Shown: positions 12,544 through 21,656 of the stretch, piece after piece
How the letters are laid out: the number at the start of each line of letters is the position of its first letter
Numbering within the stretch: the stretch's first letter is position 1
NCBI GenBank assembly: GCA_030618495.1
Contig: JAUXDE010000006.1
Location: forward strand, 1-28,905
Direction: 5' to 3'
Origin: Clostridia bacterium
GTDB lineage: Bacteria; UBA6262; WVXT01; JAUXBS01
DNA length: 28,905 nucleotides
Made by a program: the position numbers and the translations under genes
The notes under the pieces: generated by a model
Seen by the model: the letters and a program-made list of their open reading frames with translations, nothing else
Told to the model about the DNA's origin: nothing
Database searches by the model: none

Positions 12544-13389
12544 ATGCGAAAAGCACTGGGCAAGGGATTTGCCGCACTATTACCCGCGGCAGAAACTTCA
12601 ACGGAATCAATATGCCGGATCAGTATCAATAAAATAAAAGTAAACAAATACCAGGCAAGAAAAGACTTCAACCAGGAAAAAATAATCGAACTTGCCGCCT
12701 CCATAAAAAAGAAAGGCCTGCTTCAGCCTATCCTGGTCTCGCCCGAAGGCGAAAAATTCCGTTTAATTGCGGGTGAAAGGCGTTTAAGGGCGGCAAAAGC
12801 CGCCGACATGAAAGAGATACCGGCAATTATAAAAAAATCATCGGATGAAGACATGTTTGAGCTTTCCCTTATAGAAAATCTCCAGAGGGAAAACCTCAAC
12901 ATTCTTGAAGAAGCCGAGGCATACGAGAAACTGATGAAAACGTTCAGCCTTACCCAGGAACAGGTTGCTGAAAAACTGCATAAAAATAGACCCGTGATAG
13001 CCAACACTCTCCGCCTGCTTAAACTCCCCGAAGAAATAAAACAAGCCCTTTCCGGCAACCTTATTTCAGCCGGTCACGCCCGGTCCATTGCTTCAATTAA
13101 AAACAGCAAATCACAATCGAAACTCCTTGAAAAAATCATGCGGGAAAAACTAACCGTCCGTGAAGTTGAAGAAATAATAGCCGGAACAAAAACGAAAAGC
13201 TCCGGGAAGAAAAAGAAAAAAGAGAAATCCGCTGAAATTCTTGATTCGGAAGAGAACCTGCGCACAGCGCTTGGCACCAAAGTCCAGATTAAGCAAAAAG
13301 GAAAAAAAGGTAAAATAGAAGTATTCTGGTATTCCTTCGAAGACTTGAACAGGATAATGGGAATTATGACAAAAGGAGAAAAAAAGTAG
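12544..13389 (+). CDS. parB: ParB/Spo0J centromere-binding CTPase
   Basis: A 281-residue ParB. Starts with the typical RKALGKGFAALLP; the N-terminal CTPase domain includes ARKDFNQEKIIELAASIKKKGLLQPI and the arginine-rich GERRLRAAK box, followed by ENLQRENLN. The parS-reading helix-turn-helix is LTQEQVAEKLHKNRPVIANTLRLLKLP at about residues 138-164, with the usual RPxIANxLRLL of chromosomal ParB. A Lys-rich linker (about 218-232) precedes the C-terminal dimerisation domain. A GGAAGGGAG ribosome-binding site lies close to the ATG. Two perfect parS sites in the window are its expected targets. It ends the operon that began at 7033. Confidence 0.97.
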   Translation: MRKALGKGFAALLPAAETSTESICRISINKIKVNKYQARKDFNQEKIIELAASIKKKGLLQPILVSPEGEKFRLIAGERRLRAAKAADMKEIPAIIKKSSDEDMFELSLIENLQRENLNILEEAEAYEKLMKTFSLTQEQVAEKLHKNRPVIANTLRLLKLPEEIKQALSGNLISAGHARSIASIKNSKSQSKLLEKIMREKLTVREVEEIIAGTKTKSSGKKKKKEKSAEILDSEENLRTALGTKVQIKQKGKKGKIEVFWYSFEDLNRIMGIMTKGEKK

Positions 13390-15280: not shown

Positions 15281-15306
15281 CCGGGCAGGCTTAAATGCCT
15301 GCCCGG
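15281..15306 (+). promoter_or_regulatory. Perfect 10-bp hairpin between the two lipoprotein genes
   Basis: CCGGGCAGGC and GCCTGCCCGG form a flawless GC-rich stem with a TTAAAT loop. There is no T run after it, so it is a poor intrinsic terminator on its own. It more likely acts as an mRNA-stability element, processing signal or partial terminator that sets a different expression level of the two flanking genes. Confidence 0.55.
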
Positions 15307-15411
15307 CGACTTATACTTATAAGCACCAGGTTTAATATCTTTATGGATAAATTTGTATTGAACCTGGCGTTTGTAAGATTATCTATTTATATTTTTTCAG
15401 GAGGAAATTAT

Positions 15412-16881
15412 ATGTTAAGGAAAATATTCGTAACAGCGATAATATCGACCCTCGTTCTATCCTGCGCTTCCGCTAAAGTAAAACTCCTTGAGAAATCAAG
15501 CAGGAAAAGGCCAAAATGGATTATAACTTTACCCGAGGATTCAAAGAACCTCTATTTTCTGGGAAGCAAGTCAAAAGCCGCTTCATACGAAAAAGGCGTC
15601 AGCTCCGCGCTCAATCAGGCAATGACCGAGGTCATGAAACACATCGGTTTTACTTTCACCCTGCAGACCGAAATAACCACCCTTATAAAAGGCGACCAGG
15701 ACCTCAGCACCTACATGGATAAGATTAACGAAACCGGGCAAGTGGAACTTAAGGGCCAGCGTGTAAAGGAAATTTATTTTGAGAAGTACAGGGATACTAA
15801 AAAGGTAACTGAAAACAACATTACCAGAAGTGTGGAAGAAATATATTACGACGTGTACCTGCTCCTTAAATACTCAAAAAAGGAAATCAAGGCTGAACGC
15901 AGGAAAAAAGAGGAAAAGGACAGGGAAAACCAGAGGCTGGCAAGAGGATATAAGGAAGAAGGAGAAGAATTGCTTCTAAAAGGCAGGGTTATGGACACCT
16001 ACAACAAGTATGCGGATATTATTAAAACGCTGTCCTCCCAGTCGGGCGTCCCGCTCTTTAACGAAGGATTAACTTCCGTTAAGAACATAGCGGAAAACAT
16101 CATTATCAAGGAAGTCCCCTCAAAAGCAAGAAAGGAAATATCCTTCAAGGTAACCCACGAAACAGCGGACGGCAGCTCCCCGGTATCCCGGGTCAACGTC
16201 AGCTCGGAAATACTTATGGGTGAAGGAGAGGTTGATAGGCTGGTCTCAACCGGCCTTGACGGTATCGGCAACTGTAAAATCCAGAAGATGAAGTTCACCG
16301 GGGGACTTGCCAAAATAAAATTCACCGTTGAACCCGGGCAGTTCATTTTCCCACTGATGGACACTGCCTTATCAAACGAGGAAAAGGACGCCGTGGTAGA
16401 TACGGTGAAGATGAAAAGCATCATAGTGACCCTCAAGTCTTCGCAGTACGGAACCTCGAAAGTCTGCGTCATCATATGGGAAAAGAACGGGGGCCGGAAC
16501 AAGGAAATGGAAAGCATGATAACCCGGGCCCTTACGAACAACGGGATAAGCGTTGTCATCCCCAAGTCCTTAACTTCCGATTTAAGCTATAAGAATTTTG
16601 ATAATCCAGATTTCTATACAAAATTATCCGAAGAAAAAATATCTACTGCCGTAATAGGCCAGACCGAAGCAGCCGATAACGGAAAGATCTACACGATGCA
16701 ATCCGTCCTTGGAATCATTGACGCCCGTGTCGTCGATATAAAAAATCATCAGGTCCTGACAACGATTTCAAAAAGTATCCCAAAAGCCGGCATTTCGTTC
16801 GCCCAGGCAAAAACCAGGAGCTTTGAGGCCCTGGCAGAATCCGTAACCCCGACAATAGTTGATACCGTCAGCGCGGAGTAG
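15412..16881 (+). CDS. Lipoprotein with N-terminal LPP20-like domain, unknown function
   Basis: A 489-residue protein if started at the ATG at 15412, which has a perfect AGGAGG site and opens a lipoprotein signal (MLRKIFVTAIISTLVLSCAS; lipid Cys at about 17). A longer frame from 15295 runs through the hairpin and is not credible. The first 130 mature residues repeat the layout of the preceding lipoprotein: RPKWIITLPEDSKNLYFLGSKS, then a helix of Ala/Met/Glu residues. A charged helix (about 165-190) is followed by a beta-rich domain (about 235-345) and by a C-terminal alpha/beta domain with KVCVIIWEKNG and AVIGQTEAADNGKIYTMQSVLGIIDARVVDIKNHQVLTTI, which resembles CsgG/LpoB-type folds. Probably part of the same outer-membrane assembly as its neighbours; function unknown. 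Confidence 0.78.
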   Translation: MLRKIFVTAIISTLVLSCASAKVKLLEKSSRKRPKWIITLPEDSKNLYFLGSKSKAASYEKGVSSALNQAMTEVMKHIGFTFTLQTEITTLIKGDQDLSTYMDKINETGQVELKGQRVKEIYFEKYRDTKKVTENNITRSVEEIYYDVYLLLKYSKKEIKAERRKKEEKDRENQRLARGYKEEGEELLLKGRVMDTYNKYADIIKTLSSQSGVPLFNEGLTSVKNIAENIIIKEVPSKARKEISFKVTHETADGSSPVSRVNVSSEILMGEGEVDRLVSTGLDGIGNCKIQKMKFTGGLAKIKFTVEPGQFIFPLMDTALSNEEKDAVVDTVKMKSIIVTLKSSQYGTSKVCVIIWEKNGGRNKEMESMITRALTNNGISVVIPKSLTSDLSYKNFDNPDFYTKLSEEKISTAVIGQTEAADNGKIYTMQSVLGIIDARVVDIKNHQVLTTISKSIPKAGISFAQAKTRSFEALAESVTPTIVDTVSAE

Positions 16882-16905: not shown

Positions 16906-18351
16906 ATGAAATTATCTTTTAAATTATTTTTAACTGTTTGTTTTCTTTCGCTTGGCTTTTCAGGCAACAGCGTTTCCGCCAATCTTGAACCCGGGGACAG
17001 CGCCCCGAATTTTTCAATGACACGAACGGACGGCAAAAAGGAAACCCTTAAGACGCTGGTCGGGCCGGGGATGGAGAGAAGTATTGTTGTTCTGAGCTTT
17101 TTCGATACCAACTGTAAACCGTGCCTCAGAGAGCTTCCCCACATTACTGCGCTTTATAAAAAATACCGGAATACCAGGAAAGTGAAAATACGCCTCGTGG
17201 GCCTTGACACCACCGGTAAAAAAGCTATTGACCCGTACATCAAGAAGCACAACGTCATAATCCCCGTGCTTGTTGATCGCGAGGGGCTTTACGCCGGTGA
17301 AAAATACGGGGTAGTATCCTACGGCAGGGCAAAGGTGCCGAAATTATTCGTTATCAGCAAAAACAAAGTAATCAAGAAAATCTTTTCCGGGTTCAAGGAG
17401 GGGGAAGAAAAAAAATTCGAGACAACCCTTACTAACCTGATTGAAAACCTTCGCAAGGAAAAGGTCGTTAAAGAATATCCGAACAACATCACGATACTTT
17501 ATTCCAACAGCACCAACGGGTACTTTGAATCCTGCGACTGTCCCGAAAACCCGTTCGGGGGACTCGTGAGAAGGGCAACCACCATAAATAAAATCCGCAG
17601 AAATACGGACGTTCTGCTCGTAGATTCCGGTGACCACCTTTCTCCGTATCCAAACAAGCTGCGCGGGAAATATATATTCAAAATGCTCGCCCTGATGGAT
17701 TACGACGCTCTCGGCGTGGGCGACCAGGAGTTTATAAACGGCCCGGGCTGGTTCAACAATCTAATCGAGAAAAAGACCTGCGGCGACCTGCCTTTTTTGT
17801 GCACCAACATCCAGATGTGCGATGACAAACTCTGCTGGAACCTTACCAGGCCTTACATAATAACGAAAGTCGGCAAGTACAAGGTTGGCATAATAAGCAT
17901 TCTTAACGCATCCAGCGTGTATTCCTTCATGCCGCCGCCAAAAGAACTTAAAATCAAGAATTCCACGGAAACCATAAAAACTTACGTCAAGCTGCTGCGC
18001 GAAGAGAAAAAAGTCGATATCGTGGTGCTGTTATCACATTCGGGTTTTGATACGGACAAAAATATCGCAAAGCAAGTCTCGGGCATAGACGCAATTATAG
18101 GCGGTCATTCCCAGACCCTCATAGAAACACCCCGGGAAATTAATAATACTATAATAGTCCAGGCGGGAGAAAACGGCCAGAGACTGGGAAAACTCGTACT
18201 TAATTATGACGATTACGGAAAGAGAACCTCTTATGGCAGCGATTTCACCCTGCTCACCAAAAACATAAAAGACAATGCGGCGATAAGGGAACTCATTAAC
18301 CGTTACAATAAAGAAGTAAAGGAACAGGCCGGGAAAGCGCTTTCAAAATGA
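16906..18351 (+). CDS. TlpA-type thioredoxin fused to a 5'-nucleotidase-like phosphoesterase domain
   Basis: A 481-residue exported protein. A signal peptide (1-25) precedes a redoxin/TlpA domain at about 26-190 with the extended opening LEPGDSAPNFSMTRTDGK and the active-site C70-K-P-C73. The second half, about 198-470, is a UshA-like metallophosphoesterase domain: ESCDC (Cys 210 and 212), GGLVRRATTINKIR, LLVDSGDHL (240-245), YDALGVGDQEF, LSHSGFDTD and GGHSQT (His 401). The usual first metal motif DxH is replaced: NSTNGYFESCDC stands where ND.HG is found in UshA, a trait of a 'CxC...GGLxRR' subfamily often seen with redox proteins. Enzyme activity is therefore uncertain. It overlaps the next gene by four bases (ATGA), so the two products are made together. 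Confidence 0.85.
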   Translation: MKLSFKLFLTVCFLSLGFSGNSVSANLEPGDSAPNFSMTRTDGKKETLKTLVGPGMERSIVVLSFFDTNCKPCLRELPHITALYKKYRNTRKVKIRLVGLDTTGKKAIDPYIKKHNVIIPVLVDREGLYAGEKYGVVSYGRAKVPKLFVISKNKVIKKIFSGFKEGEEKKFETTLTNLIENLRKEKVVKEYPNNITILYSNSTNGYFESCDCPENPFGGLVRRATTINKIRRNTDVLLVDSGDHLSPYPNKLRGKYIFKMLALMDYDALGVGDQEFINGPGWFNNLIEKKTCGDLPFLCTNIQMCDDKLCWNLTRPYIITKVGKYKVGIISILNASSVYSFMPPPKELKIKNSTETIKTYVKLLREEKKVDIVVLLSHSGFDTDKNIAKQVSGIDAIIGGHSQTLIETPREINNTIIVQAGENGQRLGKLVLNYDDYGKRTSYGSDFTLLTKNIKDNAAIRELINRYNKEVKEQAGKALSK

Positions 18352-19874
18352 GGAAAACGATCCTCACGTTGTGTTTATTGCTGTTTGCTGCAAGTTCCCT
18401 TGCCCAGCCGTCCATAAGGCTTTCGCGGGTATCCTGGGAAGCCGGCCGGGTCGCGGAGGGAAAGCTCCTCAAGGAAAAAATAACCATCTCCAACCCCGGC
18501 AGCCAGGTGCTGGAAGTAAACCTGAGGTCCGGGTGCAGCTGTATAACTTTTGACAAAACTATCGGGAAAATCGCTCCGGGTAGAGAAAAAACCCTGACGA
18601 TTATCTTTAACACGAAAGGAAAGCAGGGGAAGTTAACCGAATATATATATTTTGACACCAATGACCCTGAATTCCCTTACTTAACATTCATTGCCGAGGC
18701 AGACGTTGCCGGCAAACCCGCGGACGAAAAAGTCCCGGTAAAAAAAGTTCTTTCTCAAGGCAGTGTTGAAGGCAGGATCCAAATATCGATGTTCTCCTCT
18801 CCCGGCTGCGCAACATGCAGGAAGCTGAAAGAGGACTTCATACCAAAGCTTGCAAAGGAACACAACCTTGCGATTAAAATCAAGCACTTTTTGGTTGATA
18901 AAAAAGAAAATTACGAGAAACTGATTGCGCTTGAGGACAGCCTGGATGACAGGAACAACAAGTTGCCCGCGCTGGTTATCGGCGGAAAGATACTCGGCGG
19001 CGACAGGGAAATAAAGGCTGAGCTGGGAAACACATTAGCATCCATCAGGGAAAAGGGACTCAAGGAGTTCTTTGGAAAAGAGGTTGCGCAAAGCGCAAAA
19101 GAGGTTTCGCCGGGCGCGGGAAATATCCGGGACAAAATTAACTCCGTACAACTTCTCCCGATTATAGGGGCGGGGCTTTTGGACGGCATAAATCCCTGCG
19201 CTTTTGCGACCATAATATTCTTTATTTCCTACCTTTCCTTTGCGGGAAAAGGCGGGAAGGAAATTCTCGGCACTGGAATAGCCTTTACCCTGGCAATTTT
19301 TTTATGCTATACTTTAATTGGTTTGGGATTATTCAAGGGATTTGAGAAGTTAACGGAAGTGCCGTTTGTTTCTCTTATAATAAAGATTATTACCGTATCA
19401 ATGGTTTTTGTACTTGGTGTCCTCAGCGTATATGATTACATCAAGTGCAGGCAGGGCAAGCCCGCTGACATGAAACTCCAGCTTTCCCCGCTCCTGAAGG
19501 AAAAGATTCATAAGTCCATAGTCAGCAAGAGGGAGGATTTTGCAGGAAAGAATTCCGGGGTATTCAAGCTTGTCCTTGCGGGTTTCAGCGTGGGGGTGCT
19601 CGTTTCAATATTCGAATTCGCGTGCACCGGGCAGATTTACCTGCCCACCATAATGTATATGCTCAAGATTCCGGGTCTCCGGTTTGGCGCTTTAGGATAC
19701 CTTTTATTGTATAACTTGATGTTCGTCGCGCCACTGATAATAATATTCATTCTCGCGTGGAAGGGGATTACTTCAGAACAGTTCACGAATATAATGCTCA
19801 AGCATTTAAGCAAGATAAAGATCGGGATGGCAGTATTTTTCTTCGGAATGGGAATATTGTTAATTTACACATAA
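18348..19874 (+). CDS. DUF1573-thioredoxin-CcdA/DsbD-type transmembrane fusion
   Basis: A 508-residue membrane protein. A signal peptide (1-19) is followed by a DUF1573 Ig-like domain at about 22-122 with the signature GCSC (Cys 63 and 65). A thioredoxin-like domain occupies about 145-245 with the active-site C154-A-T-C157, then six transmembrane helices at about 268-508 of the CcdA/DsbD type. The membrane redox cysteines are visible: C284 in DGINPCAF and C426 in EFACTGQIYLPTI. Proteins of this class carry electrons from cytoplasmic thioredoxin across the membrane. The order (thioredoxin before the membrane domain) differs from DsbD. It presumably reduces its own thioredoxin domain and then the TlpA partner encoded upstream. 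Translational coupling (ATGA overlap) supports this. Confidence 0.9.
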   Translation: MRKTILTLCLLLFAASSLAQPSIRLSRVSWEAGRVAEGKLLKEKITISNPGSQVLEVNLRSGCSCITFDKTIGKIAPGREKTLTIIFNTKGKQGKLTEYIYFDTNDPEFPYLTFIAEADVAGKPADEKVPVKKVLSQGSVEGRIQISMFSSPGCATCRKLKEDFIPKLAKEHNLAIKIKHFLVDKKENYEKLIALEDSLDDRNNKLPALVIGGKILGGDREIKAELGNTLASIREKGLKEFFGKEVAQSAKEVSPGAGNIRDKINSVQLLPIIGAGLLDGINPCAFATIIFFISYLSFAGKGGKEILGTGIAFTLAIFLCYTLIGLGLFKGFEKLTEVPFVSLIIKIITVSMVFVLGVLSVYDYIKCRQGKPADMKLQLSPLLKEKIHKSIVSKREDFAGKNSGVFKLVLAGFSVGVLVSIFEFACTGQIYLPTIMYMLKIPGLRFGALGYLLLYNLMFVAPLIIIFILAWKGITSEQFTNIMLKHLSKIKIGMAVFFFGMGILLIYT

Positions 19875-19907: not shown

Positions 19908-21656
19908 ATGAGGAGAATGATTTCCGTTTTATTAATCATTAGTTTTACTTTCCTTGCAGTCAGCGTTCATGCGCAGGAAAAAGATACAAGAAAGGGTATC
20001 GCGGTGCTTGACTTCAAGCCTTCCGGTGTATCCGCCTCAGAGGCATCTTTCATTACCGAGTTTTTCAGGAACGCGCTCGTTTCCGCCAAGGCATTCAGGC
20101 TCATTGACAAGTCGAACATGGACAGAATCCTTGCGGAACAGGGTTTCCAGCAAAGCGGCTGTACAACCCAGGAATGCGCCGTCCAGATGGGTAAAATGCT
20201 TAACGTGCAGGGTATGATATCCGGGACCTTCGGGCTGCTTTTCGGGGAATACGTTTTGACCATTAACCTTGTTAAGGTGGAAACGGGGGAAATTATTTAT
20301 TCCGACACCGGCCGGCGCAAAGACCCCAGCCAACTACAGTCCCTGACAGATGAAATGGCGGCACGCCTCGCAGCCGACCAGACCGGAAGAGCAGCGCCTG
20401 TTAAAAAAGCGGCGCCCGTAGTTCCAGTAGAGCCCGTATACGTACCCCCCGCCAGAACCATTACCCCGGCCCCAACTGCGGCGCCCCCTACGGGCCTGCC
20501 TACGCACATATCCACGGGTTTTGACGGCACGATAACTAAAGTAACTGGCAACCAGGTTACGCTAAACATGGGAAAACTACACGGTATCAGCAAGAACCAG
20601 GTGATGGACATAATAGCCATCACGGAGAAAGTCAAGAGCCCCATCTCGGGCCAGGTAACCGGCATAAAGACAAAAGTAATCGGAAAGGTAAAAATTACCT
20701 ATATTGAAGCCCAGCAGAGCCTGGGAACCGTGACATCGTTAAAAACAGGCTATAAAGCTGCTGTCGGCAATGGTATTAAATTCGCCGGGGCAAAAACATT
20801 TCTCCTGGGGTTTAACGGCCTCTGGAGTCCTTCGCAGTCCGAAACCGAAACCGGCGCCATGCAGGAGTTTGATTCATATCTCGAGTGGAGATTTTCAGAT
20901 TTCAAGATAAACGCCGGGTCAATATCCAATAACTTCCTTACAGCAACCACTGCCGGACAACCGTCGCTGGGGTATTTAATGTTCTCTCTCGATTATCCAA
21001 AGTTTGGACTCGGAGTGGGTGTCGTTATGTACGATGGTCCCGGAACATGCGTGGGCTTGCGTCTTGGCTCTGAAGAAGAAGGTAATTTGAAGAATAACTT
21101 TTACCTGGGGCGTGGGGGAGGTGAGAAAGAATATACGGGTAGTTTAGGAGAAGAATATACGAGGAAGTTAGGGGGAATTATCAAAGCTCCCGACATGCAC
21201 GTGGTAGAAAAGCTTGAGTTGAACTTTAAACCTTCAGCTTCAAGAAAGTTCCGCATGTACTCATTGATTACCGCGGATTTAGGTATAAGAAACTTTGATA
21301 ATACAGACGATTATTACGTAAGCCCCGCGATACAAAATGCTCACCTGAGCCTTATCGCTGAAGCAAGAATCGGGGCCATCTTTGGGATGAAGTTCAAGTT
21401 AATTAATAAGCTAAGTCTTAGCATGGGCTACGGGTTCTACGAGTATATCATTCTCGAAGCCTATGACTTCATTATTGACGGCAGTCCTTTTGTTAATAGC
21501 ACACCTTCCGATTTCCAAACTCAAGTTGTGATTTCAGGTGTTGATTTTAACATCACCAATAATTTCCAGATAGGAGCCGATGTTGAAATGGAATTCGGCG
21601 GTGGTTCGGGGGGAGGGGACCCTCAATTAAGGATTAAATTCGAATATGGTTTTTAG
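19908..21656 (+). CDS. CsgG/LpoB-like protein with FlgT-like domain and C-terminal barrel
   Basis: A 582-residue exported protein. A signal peptide (1-22, ending VHA) precedes a CsgG/LpoB-like domain at about 28-165 (GIAVLDFKPSGVSASEASFITEFF; SGCTTQECAVQMGKMLNVQGMISG). A Pro/Ala-rich linker spans 165-200. A small all-beta domain at about 204-275 (GTITKVTGNQVTLNMGKLHGISKNQVM) resembles FlgT C-terminal/SH3-like modules. From about 285 to the end (ending LRIKFEYGF, with terminal Phe) amphipathic strands suggest an outer-membrane barrel. Such proteins are probable assembly or anchoring factors of the outer membrane. AAGGAGAT gives a good ribosome-binding site; 33 bases separate it from the redox gene before it. 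Confidence 0.82.
   Translation: MRRMISVLLIISFTFLAVSVHAQEKDTRKGIAVLDFKPSGVSASEASFITEFFRNALVSAKAFRLIDKSNMDRILAEQGFQQSGCTTQECAVQMGKMLNVQGMISGTFGLLFGEYVLTINLVKVETGEIIYSDTGRRKDPSQLQSLTDEMAARLAADQTGRAAPVKKAAPVVPVEPVYVPPARTITPAPTAAPPTGLPTHISTGFDGTITKVTGNQVTLNMGKLHGISKNQVMDIIAITEKVKSPISGQVTGIKTKVIGKVKITYIEAQQSLGTVTSLKTGYKAAVGNGIKFAGAKTFLLGFNGLWSPSQSETETGAMQEFDSYLEWRFSDFKINAGSISNNFLTATTAGQPSLGYLMFSLDYPKFGLGVGVVMYDGPGTCVGLRLGSEEEGNLKNNFYLGRGGGEKEYTGSLGEEYTRKLGGIIKAPDMHVVEKLELNFKPSASRKFRMYSLITADLGIRNFDNTDDYYVSPAIQNAHLSLIAEARIGAIFGMKFKLINKLSLSMGYGFYEYIILEAYDFIIDGSPFVNSTPSDFQTQVVISGVDFNITNNFQIGADVEMEFGGGSGGGDPQLRIKFEYGF

Follow-up and report, generated by a model that had tools for sequence, protein, structure and literature searches.

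When a gene for a CcdA-type membrane protein overlaps a gene for a protein with a phosphatase fold, the question arises of whether their products form a single redox pathway and of what stands at its end. This question is posed by two genes, here termed p1 and p2, in a 28,905-nucleotide stretch of DNA from a Clostridia bacterium (NCBI GenBank assembly GCA_030618495.1, contig JAUXDE010000006.1), which was analyzed as a whole and is referred to as the window. A preliminary description, made from the sequence alone, had envisaged an electron path from the cytoplasm to a periplasmic nucleotidase-like substrate. Its CcdA-type domain, domain order, and pairing of the genes have held up under further analysis, but the UshA-like domain as a nucleotidase substrate has not. 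The evidence makes it probable, with some room for doubt, that p1 and p2 constitute one extracytoplasmic reductive thiol relay ending on a repurposed UshA-fold domain with a redox role. All the parts are members of known families; what is new is their combination, its conservation, and the repurposing of the UshA fold.

Domain Architecture of the Gene Pair

16906..18351, + strand: p1, 481 aa, with signal peptide, TlpA-type thioredoxin domain, and UshA-fold domain
16990..17379, + strand: TlpA/AhpC-TSA thioredoxin domain, residues 29-158 of p1 (PF00578, 3e-16)
17113-17124, + strand: CKPC motif, C70/C73 of the p1 TlpA domain
17473..18336, + strand: UshA-fold domain, residues 190-477 of p1, with hydrolase residues replaced and no C-terminal nucleotide-binding domain
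17533..17541, + strand: C210-x-C212 (CxC) of the UshA-fold domain, aligned with the CxU of UshA-like selenoproteins
17818..17835, + strand: C305/C310, a further cysteine pair in the UshA-like domain that does not vary within the p1 subfamily
18348..18351, + strand: ATGA shared by the end of p1 and the beginning of p2
18348..19874, + strand: p2, 508 aa, with signal peptide, DUF1573, thioredoxin domain, and CcdA-type membrane domain
18411..18707, + strand: DUF1573/OS_HP2 domain of Ig-like fold, residues 22-120 of p2 (PF07610; NF041425)
18534-18542, + strand: C63-x-C65 of the DUF1573 domain, invariant
18768..19067, + strand: thioredoxin-like domain, residues 141-240 of p2, with P207 at the cis-Pro position
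18807-18818, + strand: C154/C157 (CxxC) of the p2 thioredoxin domain
19131..19871, + strand: CcdA-type six-helix membrane domain, residues 262-508 of p2 (hhalign and AlphaFold2 model)
19197-19199, + strand: C284 of the membrane domain
19623-19625, + strand: C426 of the membrane domain

The two open reading frames, their domain make-up, and their overlap, in which one ATGA serves as p1 stop and p2 start, are present as initially described. The cysteines singled out at that stage (C70/C73, C154/C157, C284, and C426) were correctly placed and are invariant across 11 orthologous loci, as are all ten motif cysteines wherever these loci cover them (one p2 ends with the fetched stretch). Since C154, C157, C284, and C426 are also invariant in 29 p2 homologs, this conservation excludes chance; P207 and the DGINPCAF, E423, and CTGQ elements of the membrane domain are invariant in the same homologs. 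Beyond the preliminary description there are three more cysteine pairs (C63/C65 of DUF1573, C210/C212 and C305/C310 of the UshA-like domain), the loss of hydrolase residues in the latter domain, and a recurrent third gene downstream. Structure prediction, which had been proposed as a check, yielded good AlphaFold2 models of the two proteins singly with pLDDT values of 84.9 (p1) and 84.6 (p2).

In p2, the DUF1573 model PF07610 scores over its gathering score (6.4e-9; 36.2 bits against 26.1) and the OS_HP2 (seleno)protein model NF041425, the nearest NCBIfam family, remains under its cut-off (1.6e-10); where p2 has C63-x-C65, OS_HP2 has UxC. The domain adopts an Ig-like fold with HYDIN/PapD-type matches (Z 14), DsbD-alpha not being among the matches listed. 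The assignment of the membrane part to the CcdA/DsbD type is borne out by hhalign comparison with canonical CcdA proteins of the same phylum (probability 97.8, E 7e-13), which places both C284 and C426 on the Pro-Cys cysteines of CcdA, and by the AlphaFold2 model, which shows six helices in the membrane, C284 lying where helix 1 is broken and C426 within helix 4. The Pfam model PF02683 (E 0.01) is reached by 4 of the 29 p2 homologs, the window p2 not among them, and searching the PDB for folds like that of the membrane domain was uninformative, the list being filled by the DUF1573 domain.

Like DsbD and ScsB, p2 joins a CcdA-type membrane domain bearing two membrane cysteines to a thioredoxin domain in the periplasm; p2 also has a cysteine-bearing periplasmic domain of Ig-like fold. 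DsbD, too, has Ig-like, thioredoxin, and CcdA parts, but their order differs. The thioredoxin domain precedes the membrane part, as had been noted from the outset, and the membrane part has six helices, as in CcdA. The accompanying claim that no second periplasmic domain follows is right in that nothing stands after the membrane part, but DUF1573 is itself an Ig-like domain with an invariant CxC; its likeness to the DsbD-alpha domain of DsbD is one of fold type. The protein is best described as thioredoxin fused to CcdA and preceded by an Ig-like CxC domain at the N terminus, DsbD-like in its proposed working but not a member of that family by domain order. Among the papers searched, none treats DUF1573 together with CcdA, and none combines DsbD, thioredoxin, and "circularly permuted."

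A UshA-Fold Domain with Replaced Hydrolase Residues

The first domain of p1 scores 59.9 bits with PF00578 (AhpC-TSA; cut-off 26), which identifies a TlpA/ResA-type fold, and its C70, C73, and P145 (the cis-Pro) are invariant in 13 orthologs. The remainder of the protein had been described as 5'-nucleotidase-like, a description that stands as far as the N-terminal fold is concerned. Residues 185-480 match 5'-nucleotidases (5h7w, 1.2e-25), and the p1 model matches 3ivd over 279 residues (Z 33, rmsd 2.3), showing the N-terminal, calcineurin-like metal-domain fold of these enzymes. It does not stand for the active site or for the second domain. Both the D and the H of the DxH motif of venom 5'-nucleotidase and CD73 are replaced in p1 (S202/N204), the GNHEF of these enzymes reads GDQEF (D273, Q274), with loss of the catalytic His, and the C-terminal nucleotide-binding domain is absent, p1 ending at residue 481 and the fold match at 477. 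The replacements are kept in 13 orthologs (S202, N204, and D273 in 13/13, Q274 in 12/13), and the metal-site residues D243, H378, and H401 are retained and invariant. A nucleotidase function was hence set aside as the main reading, given the missing metal and catalytic residues and C-terminal domain, and hydrolase activity of the UshA-fold domain is improbable.

The same domain carries a CxC of its own, with C210 and C212 invariant in the 13 orthologs and in a further alignment (A3). UshA-like proteins with CxU have been listed among selenoproteins (PMC2398784), and lists of selenoproteins include both UshA-like CxU and OS_HP2/DUF1573 UxC or UGC forms (PMC2398784, PMC13188914, PMC9312934). The p1 motif, S-C210-D-C212 in the loop after the first strand, aligns with PCGU in a UshA-like protein of a Thermodesulfobacteriota MAG (L104:1239-2624 and upstream, - strand), where an in-frame TGA at the position of the second Cys encodes a putative Sec and a cytochrome c554-type multihaem region continues in the same frame after the UshA-like part. 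With the NCBIfam family UshA_like_PCGU (NF041198; PMC2398784), p1 shares the UshA-fold domain, with CxC where that family has CxU, but it differs in its score (5.6e-48; 163.8 bits against a curated cut-off of 275, which is not reached), in matching only the first ~300 of 519 model positions, in having Cys rather than Sec, and in its fused TlpA domain. The best NCBIfam match after this model is SoxB (TIGR04486, 2.9e-31), at 108.4 bits against a curated cut-off of 550, which is likewise not reached. Because its invariant CxC has relatives that carry selenocysteine, the UshA-like domain is more likely to be a redox carrier or enzyme than an ordinary substrate.

Selenocysteine was also considered for the Elusimicrobia-type pairs and rejected, because the stop codons marked within those matches turn out to be terminal, and both outer positions of the motif are Cys (CxC). 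In a Desantisbacteria MAG (L102:3-689, - strand) the UshA-like motif is CxxC (CPTC) rather than CxC. At four loci (among them L013:4759-7056), a purple-acid-phosphatase-like metallophosphoesterase (PF00149) precedes and is fused to Trx-CcdA, and its GNH is apparently GDN or GSN, comparable to the change from GNH to GDQ that the UshA-like domain shows. UshA-like and PF00149 would thus be two phosphatase folds that apparently became linked to one and the same redox module.

Conservation and Fusion of the Pair across Genomes

A genome survey, also proposed in the preliminary description, was carried out in 198 genomes from the phylum of the Elusimicrobia MAG to which locus L009 belongs. A profile of the UshA-CxC domain (E below 1e-80) detects 11 of these genomes, all 11 hits being TlpA-UshA fusions, and the two genes co-occur in every one of them: a full DUF1573-Trx-CcdA gene lies in the same orientation, directly adjacent in 10/11 and ~2.6 kb away in the other. 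Full-length p2 is found in 13 of the 198 genomes, and the hypergeometric chance of this overlap is 2e-16, a value that carries no phylogenetic correction. The pairing is retained in several bacterial phyla. Neither of the two outcomes named in the preliminary description as refuting it, genes that never co-occur or a modeled membrane domain lacking the CcdA fold, was found.

In other genomes the domains occur as a single chain, which argues that they work together. UshA-Trx-CcdA proteins without TlpA are encoded at three loci of Omnitrophota, a phylum in which most strong matches (six) have an open-frame length similar to that of this fusion, one of them domain-checked. A Desantisbacteria MAG (L014) encodes UshA-DUF1573-Trx-CcdA, with the start of UshA located at the end of another contig (L102) that overlaps and is almost identical, and at a further locus (L100) UshA is joined to a thioredoxin domain. 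A comparable design is that of TsoB, a rhodanese/DsbD fusion selenoprotein listed without a description of function (PMC13188914), in which an extracytoplasmic redox domain is likewise fused to a DsbD-like membrane part, but the fused domain and the gene set are others.

Co-occurrence is not a universal rule across phyla. Of 296 genomes from the spirochaete phylum, 27 have UshA-CxC and 15 have p2; 3 have both, and in 2 the genes are adjacent. Most other spirochaete UshA-CxC genes adjoin genes for a rhodanese and a MauE/DoxX protein with CGC, often with a GAF/HD-domain protein in the same cluster. MauE, too, is a membrane protein that acts in thiol pathways, and its presence beside UshA-CxC suggests that the electron donor to this domain may be exchangeable (CcdA-Trx or MauE).

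A Proposed Reductive Thiol Relay and Its Alternatives

Reductive relays leading from cytoplasmic thioredoxin through CcdA and TlpA-type thioredoxins to an extracytoplasmic enzyme are established, an example being the CcdA-Etrx-MsrAB2 system of Streptococcus pneumoniae (PMC3914529). The path proposed here is of the same kind, but thioredoxin and CcdA form one chain, TlpA is fused to the acceptor, and this acceptor is the UshA-fold domain of p1 instead of a methionine sulfoxide reductase. For the direction of electron flow, the order of transfer, the role of DUF1573, and the final substrate, we infer the following scheme. Electrons from cytoplasmic thioredoxin would first reach C284/C426 in the CcdA-type membrane part of p2 and pass from there to the periplasmic thioredoxin domain of this protein (C154/C157), after which the CxC of DUF1573 (C63/C65) perhaps acts as a relay; p2 would then reduce the TlpA domain of p1 (C70/C73), and this domain the CxC (C210/C212) of the UshA-fold domain, at which the relay would end. 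Having lost its hydrolase residues, the latter would work as a thiol redox carrier or enzyme, with the adjacent CsgG-like protein and its cysteine pair as a possible client.

Several lines of evidence point to this relay: the invariant cysteines in every domain, the homology to CcdA, the UshA-fold domain devoid of usable hydrolase residues, the alignment of CxC with CxU (together with the in-frame TGA of L104), the conserved pair and its fusions, the swap of donor partner in spirochaetes, and the CcdA-Etrx-MsrAB2 precedent. It counts against the relay that most spirochaete UshA-CxC genes occur in genomes without p2, and that one paralog resembling p1 (L098) has no cysteine at the first Cys position of the TlpA motif. 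Homologs of p2 are, moreover, far commoner than the pair and usually lack DUF1573 or UshA (the relatives compared were the best 80, picked by similarity, of at least 566 in a scan of named genomes), which implies that p2 has other clients.

If the UshA-fold domain were still a metal hydrolase, whether nucleotidase or SoxB-like, the relay would only keep a regulatory or structural disulfide reduced, as in the preliminary description. The invariant metal-site residues, the SoxB match, and the close fit of the N-terminal fold agree with such a role, but the loss of DxH and GNH and of the C-terminal substrate domain is conserved throughout and the SoxB score is far under its cut-off, making a hydrolase distinctly unlikely. 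The CxC or CxU might alternatively carry or reduce sulfane sulfur and be regenerated by the relay, following the logic of the Sox system, in which SoxB is a UshA-superfamily protein, SoxV is of CcdA type, and SoxW is a periplasmic thioredoxin. The pair shares this trio of components and SoxB is the top NCBIfam match apart from the UshA-like selenoprotein model; p1 has, however, lost metal and catalytic residues, and SoxYZ was not seen. Rhodanese and MauE accompany UshA-CxC in spirochaetes, but that link comes from other lineages: neither these nor sox genes were seen beside the pair in the window and the Elusimicrobia-type loci examined, so that an operon with sulfur genes, found in spirochaetes only, was rejected for the window. 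We consider a sulfur-handling enzyme rather doubtful.

TlpA/ResA and CcdA are also the classical reductive pair of cytochrome c maturation, and both domains score with those families, so that p1 and p2 could serve this route or general disulfide repair, with the UshA-fold and DUF1573 domains as passive binders. This appears quite improbable, since the genome encodes a separate canonical CcdA, the CxC of both supposedly passive domains is invariant and has Sec relatives, and other phyla have UshA-like domains joined to Trx-CcdA with no TlpA part. The relay ending on the UshA-fold domain remains the preferred reading. Lists of selenoproteins have included UshA-like CxU proteins since 2008, with no role known for them, and gene linkage and fusions would put the Cys-containing version at the terminus of a thiol relay across the membrane. 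This poses the concrete question of whether a fold of phosphatases now belongs to a redox protein, and of what such a protein reduces. The design with thioredoxin before CcdA is widespread in candidate phyla, and current domain models cover it poorly.

A CsgG-Like Third Gene

The gene next after p2 encodes a CsgG-like protein with a cysteine pair.

19908..21656, + strand: CsgG/LpoB/TolB_N-like gene (PF03783, PF13036)
20160-20177, + strand: C85/C90 pair of the CsgG-like protein

To judge from its sequence, the C-terminal part of the product is probably an outer-membrane barrel. Relatives of this gene adjoin TlpA-UshA or UshA genes at ten loci, and are found between p1 and p2 at another (L139) and next to p2 at one more (L007). 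At 7 of the 11 Elusimicrobia-type loci a CsgG-like gene lies inside the fetched stretch, for which the chance, allowing for copy number per genome, is ~7e-9. The family is multi-copy, with ~9 copies bearing the cysteine pair in the genome of the window, the further ones on eight other contigs, and 3 in a genus mate; the sister family (4 genomes) has weak CsgG-like matches only, without the cysteines. In sampled genomes without UshA-CxC these cysteines are mostly absent, with four genomes as exceptions. The CsgG-like protein is probably part of the same set as p1 and p2, and the recurrent linkage, together with a cysteine pair mostly absent where UshA-CxC is absent, makes the CsgG-like proteins the best candidate clients of the relay. 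Shared ancestry could also produce this cysteine pattern, and C85/C90 could be a structural disulfide. In a broader and more tentative reading, possible if doubtful, a UshA-fold phosphatase would have turned into a general extracytoplasmic thiol/selenol module with interchangeable donors (CcdA-Trx, MauE, or a multihaem cytochrome), acting in the lineage of the window on multi-copy outer-membrane CsgG-like proteins through their cysteine pair.

Upstream of p1, positions 15295-16881 of the window hold a lipoprotein-like gene without a confident Pfam match, the C-terminal part of whose product, by eye, resembles a TolB/CsgG-type domain and has no cysteines. Positions 12544-13389 hold a ParB gene whose product comprises an N-terminal, an HTH, and a dimerisation domain.
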